DNA from: Methanimicrococcus blatticola
Lineage (GTDB): Archaea; Halobacteriota; Methanosarcinia; Methanosarcinales; Methanosarcinaceae
Assembly (NCBI RefSeq): GCF_004363215.1
Contig: NZ_SNYS01000007.1
Span: 62,001 to 126,000 of the forward strand
Length of the DNA: 64,000 nt
Reading direction: 5' to 3'
In this document: positions 59,093 to 63,660 of the stretch, in pieces
Numbering within the stretch: the first letter of the stretch is position 1
How the letters are laid out: each line of letters begins with the position of its first letter
Notes under the pieces: model-generated
Told to the model about the DNA's origin: nothing
The model's database searches: none
Seen by the model: the letters and a program-made list of their open reading frames with translations, nothing else
Translations under genes and position numbers: made by a program

Positions 59093-59418
59093 TCTTATGT
59101 CTCCTGATTTTGAATAATAGAATAATAATTAAAGTTAAAACAAACTTTTCAAGATGCATCGCGATGTTTTAAAAACAAAAATAACTTGAAAAAGATGAAA
59201 TTTCAGATAGAAATCTAACAAATAACTGATTAAAGTTCTATAAAAAACCATCGGTCTCAAAAAACAGATGAGCGGCAGGTGAAGAGAGTATAAGAGCCGC
59301 AAAAGAGCAGTAAAAGAGCCATAAAAAGAAGCGCACAAAAATGATATTTTCATTCATCGTTTTCTCATATTTTTCTTTCATGAAAAAATGAGATCACCGT
59401 TTTTCTCAAAATAGATTA

Positions 59419-59836
59419 AACCCGAAACAACCGACCGCTAATTTACATTCCGAATTGAGTGAAACGAAATGAGGAATGGAAATTTGCGGATTCGTACTCA
59501 TCCGATACAGCAAAAATGAGAAACAGTTTTTCAAGAAGTTGACTTCATTTACAGCATTTGTTTTACAGCATATATTTGATTTGCAGCGTGCGTCAAGTTT
59601 GCGACATTTAGTTTGCTGTGTGCATCCGATTTGCCGTATGCATCCGATTTGCTGTGTGCATCTGATTTGCTGTGTGCATCCGATTTGCCGTGTGCATCCG
59701 ATTTGCCGTGTGCAGTTGGTTTGCTGCGTGCATCTGCTCTTTCTTAGCACACCCGTTCGCTTACGCGAACGGAACCGCCGTCACCCGTCGTTTGAGTTGC
59801 TGCTTGTGTCTGCCTTGCCGCGCGCGAGCCGCTCCA
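59419..59836. repeat. Dispersed repeat family R2, copy C
   Basis: This copy occupies much of the 976-bp divergent gap between the thermosome and pheT genes (59093-60068). Hairpin 1 has arms AATTTACATTCC (59440-59451) and GGAATGGAAATT (59473-59484). The conserved GCGGATTCGTAC and CCGATACAGCAAAA follow. The TTTGCTGCGTGCATCTGCTC segment (59720-59739) precedes hairpin 2 (CGTTCGC-TTAC-GCGAACG, 59754-59771). The end is GCCGCGCGCGAGCCGCTCCA. The remaining 59837-60068 has TCGAATTATAA direct repeats and a TATA box at about 60033-60040 for pheT. Confidence 0.88.
59612..59737 (+). repeat. 18-bp minisatellite inside R2 copy C
   Basis: Seven contiguous 18-bp units start at 59612, 59630, 59648, 59666, 59684, 59702 and 59720, each close to TTTGCTGTGTGCATCCGA. 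The last unit is the conserved R2 segment present once in copies A and B, so the array is an expansion of part of the element. Confidence 0.92.
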
Positions 59837-60068
59837 GTCGTATAAAAAATAAAAACGCTAACCCGAAATTATAAAAAATAAAAATCGACCATGAATTATA
59901 AAGAAATAAGAAAAAGAAACGAACTCGAATTATAACTCGAATTATAAACGGAATAATTCATATATCAAAGGAAGCGTTTAATAAATCCGATTCATTGAAA
60001 TTAATCATATTTCTATTATTATTCTACTCTACATTATATCTAAATTCATCTTTCAAATCTGATTCATT

Positions 60069-61712
60069 ATGCCTGTTATTACTGTTGATTCAAAGGATCT
60101 GGAGACGCTTTCCGGCATTGACCGGCAGAAAATTATTGACAATGTCTCTATGATCGGTGCCGAAGTCGAACGTGTCGAAGAAGAAACAATCGATATCGAA
60201 TTTTTCCCAAACCGCCCCGACCTTTACAGCGTTGAAGGCGTTTCTCGTGCAATGAAAGCGTTCTTCGGCATGTCGCCCGGCCTTAAGAAATATACCATTA
60301 ACCCGCCGCAGATTGAAATCACGATTAAAAAAGAAGTCAAAGATGTACGCCCCGTTCTCGGCTGTGCTGTCGTCCGCGGACTTTCATTCACTTCCGCATC
60401 CATTAAGTCACTCATGGATTTGCAGGAAGATCTGCACTGGGCACTCGGTCGCGGCCGCAAAAAAGTTTCAATCGGTGTCCATGATATGACCGGCATTACC
60501 GCGCCTTTTACATACACAACAGAATCACCGGACTATGCATTTGTTCCGCTGGATCATACCGAAAAAATGACAATGACGGAAATCTTGGAAAAGCATGCCA
60601 AAGGCGTCAAGTTTGCCCACCTTGTTAAAGATATGACCAAATATCCGATTATCAAAGACGCGAACGGAAATGTTTTGTCATTCCCGCCGATTATCAACGG
60701 AACCTTGACAACCGTCACCGAATCAACGAAAGAATTATTTATCGACGTTACCGGCACGAGCAAAGAAGTGTACACGGCATTAAATATTGTCGTTGCCGCC
60801 CTTGCCGAACGCGGCGGCATTATTGAAGCCGTTAAAATTATTGATGAAAGCGCAAACAAAAAAGAATCGGAAACAATTCTTCCGAACCTGGAACCGTTGG
60901 TACAGATTATTGCGCAGGAAGAAATCGAAACCCACCTCGGATTTAAATTATCAGCCGACGAAGTGATTCAATCCCTTGCGAAAATGGGATTTGACGCGAC
61001 CTTGATTTCGAAAAATCCTGCCGCTTTTGAGGTTTTAATTCCGGCATACCGCGCTGATATTTTGCATAAATATGATGTGATTGAAGACGTGGCAATCGGA
61101 TACGGCTACGCCAACATTCCGGCAAAGCTGCCCGAAAATTACACAGCAGGCAAATCCAATCCGCTTTCAGTTTCAAGACTTGCCGCAAGCGAAGCGATGA
61201 TCAGTCTCGGCTACAGTCAAGTTATGCCGTTTACGCTGACGAGCGAAAAGATTCATTTTGAAAACATGCGCCGCCCCGTGACAAACGATGTGACGTACGT
61301 GATACATCCGATCAGCGAAGACCAGACAATGATTCGAACAACGATTTTGCCCGGTCTTTTGGAAATTTTAGCACTCAACCGTCACAGAGAATTACCGCAG
61401 AAGATTTTTGAAGTCGGCGAAGTGGCTGTCAACGCTAAAAACAAACAAAAAATCGCGGCGGTTTCAATTCACCACGCGGCCAACTTTACGGAAATGTCTG
61501 AAGTTGTGGATGCGTTTTTAAGAGAAACGAAAACGGAATACGAAATCAAAGAATCCGACGATCCGGCTTTCCTTCCGGGAAGAGTGGCAGACATTTACGT
61601 CGGCGGCAAAAAGGTCGGCGTTTTCGGCGAATTGCATCCCGGCGTTTTAACAGCGTTTGAACTCGGATACGCCGTTATCGGTTTTGAAGCGGATATGTCT
61701 TTGATTTTCTGA
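60069..61712 (+). CDS. pheT: Phenylalanyl-tRNA synthetase beta subunit
   Basis: The 547-residue subunit matches archaeal/eukaryotic-type Phe[40 protein letters not shown] near residue 46, the B5 domain ([18 protein letters not shown] near 287) and [19 protein letters not shown]-type sequence near 420. It holds the editing site (B3/B4), while PheS carries the catalytic site. pheS is not in the window. A TATA box near 60033-60040 would place transcription within a few bases of the ATG, so the mRNA may be leaderless. Confidence 0.96.
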
Positions 61713-62039: not shown

Positions 62040-62220
62040 GAAAGAAGGATTAAAAGCTGTCGACGGAGTGTGTTTTGGGGATTTCCCGCCGACAAATAAA
62101 AAGAATCAAAATGTTGTTGGGGGTCAACATTTTGTTTAACGGTTTGATAAGGATTGTTTTACGGAGGTTGTGTCGTCAGACAAAAAAGTGTAAAACAACT
62201 TACGTTTACCTAACCCTATT
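62040..62220 (-). ncRNA. Candidate structured small RNA (minus strand)
   Basis: Between convergent pheT and larC (61713-62454, no gene), a minus-strand TATA box CTATATATAC lies at 62250-62241. About 25 nt downstream begins a segment with three stem-loops. Stem 3 is GTAAAACAA/TTGTTTTAC (62190-62198 with 62154-62162). Stem 2 is CAAAATGTTG/CAACATTTTG (62107-62116 with 62125-62134), with an ACCCCCAA loop. Stem 1 is at 62058-62066 with 62086-62094. In stem 1 the only irregular pair is G-U on the minus strand but A-C on the plus strand. A T/C-rich tail at 62040-62056 (minus) suits termination. The first loop exposes ACCTCC, complementary to Shine-Dalgarno sites. Confidence 0.5.
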
Positions 62221-62454
62221 TCTTTCTAAATATTTCAGGTGTATATATAGTTATCGGATTTTTGAAACCGCCGACCGCTTTTAAAAAAACGATAAAACAG
62301 ATACAGCAGATTATATGAAAAAGAAGGCATGGGTCAAACAAAAACATAAGCGGTCGAAAAATAAATTGTAATAAAAAATCGAAAAGAAAAAAAGTAAAGA
62401 AGAAAAATAAAAGAAAAAAAGTAAAAGAAAAAATAAAGAAAAGAAAAAATAAAT

Positions 62455-63660
62455 TTAAGAAAAATGCTGTCTCCCGACTTCTTCGGCGCGTTGAAGAACG
62501 GTTCGAAGCGGCAATCCTGTCTCAGCGGCGATTTGTTTACAATTATCATATTCTGCCGTGACAGTAATAAGTTCGCCGTCGGTGAACCGGGCGATTTTAA
62601 ACGGAATTTCGTAAGACTTGTTGTCGATTGAAACCGGTATTGAAACAATTTCGCGTTTGACAGACAATCTGTGTTTGGTCGGCATAACGCGAACGCCTAA
62701 TGATCCGGTTTCCCGAATAATTTGCCGCGCCAATTTTTCAGAATCCCCGACTTTTGAAATGACTTTAATCATGTGAGCCGGGCGACCTTTTTTCATATAA
62801 ATCGGAAAAACGGAAACATCCAATGCGCCGGCACTCATTAAATTTTCAACCAAATTCCCGAGAACTTCGCCTGTCACGTCATCCACATTTGTTTCCAAGA
62901 CTTCGATTTGATCTTTTTGAAACGGCAGGCAGCCCGAATAATCAATCAGCGAAGCACGCAAAACATTCGGAGATTCTGTTTCAGCATCACCCGCGCCGTA
63001 ACCGATGCAAACAGTTTTGCTTGTTTGAAGTTGCGCCGGCGCGGCAAAATGAGATAAAATCGCAGCGCCCGTCGGTGTCAACAATTCACGGCTGCCATCA
63101 GAATAAAAAGAAAGACCGCCGGATTTTAAGATTTCAAGCGTTGCCGGTGCCGGAACGGGAAGTTTGCCGTGGCAGCAATTCACAAAGCCGCCACCGACAT
63201 TAACACCGGCACAGATGATTTCATTGTAAGCGGTTTCGGGGTTTTGTTTGAGATTATAAAAAGCGAGACACACGCCGACAACATCGGCAATCGCGTCGTC
63301 CTGACCGGTTTCATGAAAATGTAATTTATCAAGCGGTTTTCCGTGAACGACGGATTCGGCTTCTGCAATGATTTTAAAAACGGCAAGCGCGTTTTGTTCA
63401 ACTTCTTTCGGCAAGCCTGCGCTTGAAACGATATCGCAGATTTCGGAAAAATGGCGCTCGTTGTTTGGTGAATTTTCGGAAATCGAAACATTTGTCGCGG
63501 CAATGCCGCCCTTGTTGACTTTTTCAACAGTCATTGAAACATTGGCAAGCGATTCAATATGTTTTTGAATAAAAGATGCTGGTGCTCCTAAATCAATCAG
63601 AGTTCCGAGAATCATATCGCCGGAAGCCCCCGAAAACGGCTCGAAATAAATCGCTTTCAT
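62455..63660 (-). CDS. larC: Nickel-pincer cofactor biosynthesis protein LarC
   Basis: The 401-residue protein matches LarC (TIGR00299): IYFEPFSGASGDMILGTLID at the start, LHFHETGQDDAIADVVG near residue 115, and LETNVDDVTGEVLGNLVENL with the metal-binding Asp pair near 263. LarC inserts nickel into the pincer nucleotide cofactor of lactate racemase-type enzymes. Here it is a single uninterrupted reading frame. Its ATG overlaps the larB stop as ATGA, so both form an operon. No larA or larE is visible. Nickel is also used by the nickelochelatase and hydrogenase encoded in the window. Confidence 0.93.
   Translation of the reverse strand: MKAIYFEPFSGASGDMILGTLIDLGAPASFIQKHIESLANVSMTVEKVNKGGIAATNVSISENSPNNERHFSEICDIVSSAGLPKEVEQNALAVFKIIAEAESVVHGKPLDKLHFHETGQDDAIADVVGVCLAFYNLKQNPETAYNEIICAGVNVGGGFVNCCHGKLPVPAPATLEILKSGGLSFYSDGSRELLTPTGAAILSHFAAPAQLQTSKTVCIGYGAGDAETESPNVLRASLIDYSGCLPFQKDQIEVLETNVDDVTGEVLGNLVENLMSAGALDVSVFPIYMKKGRPAHMIKVISKVGDSEKLARQIIRETGSLGVRVMPTKHRLSVKREIVSIPVSIDNKSYEIPFKIARFTDGELITVTAEYDNCKQIAAETGLPLRTVLQRAEEVGRQHFS

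Follow-up and report, generated by a model that had tools for sequence, protein, structure and literature searches.

To our knowledge, only a few archaeal small RNAs (sRNAs) have known targets. Among Gram-positive bacteria, sRNAs with C-rich loops such as RsaE and RNAIII pair through these loops with Shine-Dalgarno sequences. Methanimicrococcus, the genus considered here, comprises gut methanogens of the Methanosarcinaceae that make H2-dependent use of methanol and methylamines. The closest described archaeal systems are those of Methanosarcina mazei, in which sRNA154 and sRNA41 mask ribosome-binding sites, that of glnA2 being covered by loop 2 of sRNA154 (PMC5867862). A third RNA, sRNA162, is a 191-nt intergenic transcript with three stem-loops that is concerned with the switch between methanol and methylamine; its contact with a ribosome-binding site is made by a single-stranded linker, and its action is indirect, by way of the regulator MM2441 (PMC3510493). 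The RNA described here resembles the nitrogen-regulated sRNA154 in being intergenic, in belonging to the Methanosarcinaceae and in carrying an anti-ribosome-binding-site sequence in a hairpin loop; it differs in that its predicted targets are methylamine rather than nitrogen genes and in possessing three C-rich loops compared with the two loops of sRNA154. With sRNA162 it shares the intergenic location, the three stem-loops and a predicted concern with the methanol/methylamine switch, whereas its contact with the target is predicted to be direct and made by loops. It also differs from sRNA41, which by its description targets the ACDS genes. The likeness to RsaE and RNAIII, the use of C-rich loops for Shine-Dalgarno pairing, is one of analogy, those RNAs being bacterial.

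The window analysed is a stretch of 64,000 nt from the genome of Methanimicrococcus blatticola (G000, 42% G+C; contig NZ_SNYS01000007.1, positions 62,001 to 126,000), with which five other Methanimicrococcus genomes (G001–G005) were compared. It is close to certain that the minus strand holds a structured RNA gene at approximately 62216–62045, about 170 nt in length, with both ends placed from the spacing to a TATA box and from a T-rich tail. The TATA box, TATATATA (TATTTATA in G004), lies at 62249–62242, essentially where a preliminary description of this DNA had put it (62250–62241), and keeps the same spacing in each of the six species. Approximately 31 nt past the box an invariant GGGTTAGGTAAAC begins at 62216, and with it the first helix. 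The 742-bp gene-free interval between convergent genes that had also been described is real, pheT ending at 61712 and larC (62455–63660, minus strand) ending at 62455. Together, the conserved TATA box and this gap point to an independent intergenic gene with its own promoter. In each of the six genomes the RNA gene is adjacent to larC, downstream of it and on the same strand; on the opposite side, three species have pheT as the neighbour and the other three a different gene. The constant position behind larC could mean that the element belongs to larC, as its terminator or a 3'-UTR element, and is no separate RNA, but this is very improbable given that the conserved TATA box stands about 200 nt beyond larC and that the intervening spacer is not conserved. 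A AGTAAGTAAGCAGT tandem repeat fills the interval from larC to the sRNA promoter in G001 (L006:1677-2006). Another tandem repeat, between the thermosome gene and pheT of the window (59406–59874), contains frames on both strands with CTQQIGC / CCVHPIC units and is probably non-coding.

The three ordered stem-loops and T/C-rich tail initially proposed for the minus strand were recovered as three hairpins and a T-rich tail; the stems had been numbered from the 3' end, so that the former stem 3 corresponds to hairpin 1. The minimum free energy of the single sequence is −46.3 kcal/mol (z = −4.2 against dinucleotide shuffles, with none of 200 as good), and the consensus energy of the six-species alignment has a z of −10.8 against column shuffles, none of 300 being as low. 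Within this alignment 94.3% of cells pair, compared with 34–61% when the partner is slid. Covariation of the stems, which had been suggested as a check, is seen: both partners differ between species in five pairs, of which hairpin 3 holds four. When read on the minus strand, the paired columns hold 18 G-U cells and 3 A-C cells, which favours that strand and extends to the whole alignment the earlier argument from G-U in place of A-C. Species differ by gaps whose lengths are not divisible by three, ruling out a conserved reading frame; the element combines a conserved secondary structure with the lack of such a frame. A plus-strand open frame of 69 codons with a TTG start is present, yet the idea of a small protein-coding gene, or of a fold arising by chance, retains a negligible probability: it is largely refuted by the six-species comparison through conservation, covariation and the gap lengths.

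Hairpin 1 (62216–62140) shows little variation and consists of an outer helix, GGUU/GGUA with UAUC/AACC, and an inner helix, UUGUUUUAC/GUAAAACAA, that pairs in all species but is without proof by covariation because it is invariant. The apical region contains a U tract, an invariant GUCUGA and ACCUCC (GCCUCC in G002). As the 16S tail of G000 reads GGATCACCTCCTAA, hairpin 1 resembles an anti-Shine-Dalgarno sequence. The ACCTCC previously described as exposed in a loop is present at 62168–62163, although the loop is not plainly open, with a weakly supported 4-bp inner hairpin beside the motif and the GUAAA that follows CCUCC sitting in a stem. Hairpin 2 (62133–62108) is formed by AAAAUGUUG/CAACAUUUU and shows one U-A to C-G change and two G-U changes. 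Its loop, ACCCCCAA at 62124–62117, matches the C-rich loop of the preliminary description and is C-rich in five of the six species, the sixth, G005, having ACUUCCUA instead. Hairpin 3 (62094–62058) is G+C-rich and is followed by the T-rich tail (62055–62040), the two together being a probable terminator. It carries a third C-rich loop that had been missed, AAATCCCCAAAA at 62084–62073, and this loop (AAAUCCCCAAA) retains CCCC in every species. Comparison of the sequences thus gives a conserved putative promoter and a covarying minus-strand RNA of three hairpins and three C-rich loops.

At the 5' end of the RNA (62216–62205, minus strand), GGTTAGGTAAAC is invariant in all six species though only partly paired, and is a candidate protein site or a site for some other target. 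A structured RNA acting via a protein, as sponge or scaffold, with the invariant GGUUAGGUAAAC and the U tract as protein sites, would accommodate both this segment and the equally invariant GTCTGA, neither of which is fully explained by pairing, as well as the conserved U tract adjoining. Such a role is nonetheless improbable, since it leaves unexplained the conserved complements in three methylamine leaders that are described below.

Homologues were located by a DNA search without structure in all six Methanimicrococcus genomes examined, and a covariance model scored 163–195 bits in these genomes (E 3e-37 to 3e-45), the same six having been used to build it. Outside the genus, the model gave no significant match in approximately 180–186 genomes from the order (best E 0.3), and neither larC synteny nor short-word BLAST revealed relatives beyond the genus. 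The search in related methanogens that had been recommended found the RNA in one genus only. No relative was detected by the model in Methanosarcinaceae genomes outside the genus; the comparison with sRNA154, sRNA162 and sRNA41 is one of published features. Rfam covariance models run at both thresholds produced no match. A C/D box sRNA was rejected because the alignment contains no RUGAUGA and the conserved CUGA sits midway through hairpin 1 rather than near the 3' end, an H/ACA guide RNA because the ACA after hairpin 3 occurs only in G000 and is not conserved, and SRP RNA or RNase P RNA because both are located elsewhere in the genome. No publication on Methanimicrococcus small RNAs turned up in the literature searched. 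As far as was searched, this appears to be a previously undescribed small RNA gene specific to the genus.

For the target scan, almost the whole genome (1.776 Mb) was read in pieces, 1,607 genes were called by a simple script and 1,601 start regions were scored. The longest exact complement among all start regions is the ribosome-binding site of mtbC, UUUACGGAGGU, which matches over 11 nt the hairpin 1 segment ACCUCCGUAAA (62168–62158, minus strand) predicted to pair with the ribosome-binding sites of both mtbC and mtmC. The mtbC gene encodes a dimethylamine corrinoid protein (NCBIfam equivalog NF041607) and is followed by mtbB (TIGR02368) and then by mttB/mttC-like frames, with in-frame TAG codons in mtbB and mttB. 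Each of the six species retains 10–12 bp at the mtbC site, with a single G-U in G002, whereas the flanking bases drift. A pattern search for the 11-mer in the six genomes returned 14 exact copies, of which five are the sRNA gene itself, five are at mtbC, one is at mtmC of G002 and three lie elsewhere; in 32 further genomes from the family, comparison of coordinates placed none near an mtbC copy. The proposal that ACCTCC could pair with sites of the GGAGGT type gains independent support here, because the longest exact start-site complement of the genome is the mtbC site and is kept genus-wide.

The mtmC gene belongs to TIGR02370 (methyltransferase-cognate corrinoid proteins) and was taken as the monomethylamine corrinoid gene because an mtmB-like frame with an in-frame TAG lies downstream. 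Its ribosome-binding site carries UACGGAGGU in the six species and is complementary to loop 1. In addition, a hairpin in the mtmC leader presents GGGG as part of GGGGAUUU, which is complementary to loop 3 over 8 nt and occurs in all six species with a single A-C mismatch in G001. Two mtmC copies about 5.7 kb apart are present in G001 (C1:56607-57245 and 62349-62987; L238 and L240), each with a copy of mtbA; one mtmC copy keeps both sRNA-complementary sites and the other has lost both together. The start site of mtbA (NF041608 equivalog) contains UUGGGG in each of the six species and fits both UCCCCAA of loop 3 and CCCCCAA of loop 2. The hairpin 3 loop, AAAUCCCCAAAA at 62084–62073, is accordingly the predicted docking site for GGGGAUUU of the mtmC leader and for UUGGGG of mtbA. 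Across the genus, complementarity to the leaders of three separate mRNAs is conserved in all six species, and at the level of sequence mtbC, mtmC and mtbA are the probable targets.

A joint score, combining the match of the ribosome-binding region to loop 1 with that of the leader to the better of loops 2 and 3, put mtmC at the top of the 1,601 genes with mtbC next; in an earlier version that used longer segments, the two ranked first and fifth. Three of 13 corrinoid/methyltransferase genes fell within the top 20, a result matched by none of 28 full and 28 C-core-keeping shuffles, although the 13 were picked after the first hits and the third of the three, a fused corrinoid/methyltransferase gene (C7:67755), owes its rank to a strong loop 2 match that resembles one arm of a cis pseudoknot and is not kept. 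Because conservation and outgroups were used to test a target idea that the hits themselves had suggested, the ranking statistics are partly post hoc. Nested co-folds pairing the full-length sRNA with every start region did not single out the targets (mtmC 604, mtbC 640 and mtbA 1138 of 1601); kissing loops cannot form in such folds, which also charge for the opening of hairpin 1, a real cost. Between sRNA and target, no clear compensatory changes were found.

These unremarkable co-fold ranks, the high scores of many well-expressed genes and the presence of ACGGAGG in 22 start regions (0.7 expected) would suit a trans-acting sRNA whose C-rich loops bind Shine-Dalgarno or G-rich sites of different genes, or of a much larger set, the fit to the methylamine genes being a by-product of strong ribosome-binding sites. 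This reading is, however, rather unlikely. By anti-Shine-Dalgarno strength alone mtmC ranks 64 and mtbC 63, compared with 1 and 2 by the loops, and both the conserved UUU extension at the mtbC site and the conserved GGGG hairpin of the mtmC leader lie beyond the Shine-Dalgarno sequence. A point against the methylamine targets is that UACGGAGG also fits ordinary 16S pairing. A global regulon of loops 2 and 3 was rejected, the genome-wide enrichment of UUGGGG before starts being too modest to make the case.

We therefore favour, with moderate confidence, a trans-acting small regulatory RNA of Methanimicrococcus that would act on the leaders of methylamine genes by its C-rich loops. Given that these loops fit the ribosome-binding sites of methylamine genes, the sRNA is probably a switch for that pathway. 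The C-rich loops would dock on the G-rich leader sites of mtbC, mtmC and mtbA, loop 1 might then invade its target further through GUAAA, and the docked loops would block ribosome entry. The methyltransferase systems for mono- and dimethylamine could thereby be made in smaller amounts, for example with methanol available, both this trigger and the sign of the effect being guesses. By analogy, the mode of action is most likely that of sRNA154 and sRNA41, and the masking of ribosome-binding sites suggests repression, although the mRNAs may instead be stabilized, as reported for other targets of sRNA154. More tentatively, one sRNA may coordinate the methanogenesis substrate regulon by docking at multiple sites, hairpin 1 on the mtbC and mtmC sites and hairpin 3 on the mtmC GGGG hairpin and mtbA, which would constitute a post-transcriptional methyltransferase switch; this fuller scheme is possible but doubtful. 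Should the predicted direct sites at three methylamine genes, conserved across the genus, hold true, this sRNA would offer a well-defined example of an H2-dependent, methyl-reducing methanogen of the gut choosing its substrate post-transcriptionally. It would contrast with sRNA162, the archaeal sRNA tied to methylamine use, for which the link to the methyltransferase genes was indirect.

Several features of the leaders were recorded apart from the sites described above. In the mtbC leader, UCAGACAAAAA forms an 11-nt match to the U tract/GUCUGA segment and was set aside because it is kept in only three of the six species. A loop 3 match in the mtbC leader of G001 (−21 kcal/mol) overlaps a cis helix and was not counted as covariation. 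The mtbC leader of G000 (C7:41560-41773; L194-L199) contains a conserved, partly covarying element, GTACAATTC/GAATTGTAC, interleaved with GGTTTTTC/GAAAAACC as a possible pseudoknot, and an invariant GGGGGGA ahead of a GATGCAA/TTGCATC hairpin; this element could itself act as a cis-regulatory leader. The leader of the fused corrinoid/methyltransferase gene, in G000 (C7:67680-67755; L209) and in G002 (L203), shows the arrangement GGGG(G)...GGTCT(C)...CCCC...(G)AGACC, an apparent conserved pseudoknot by the start site.
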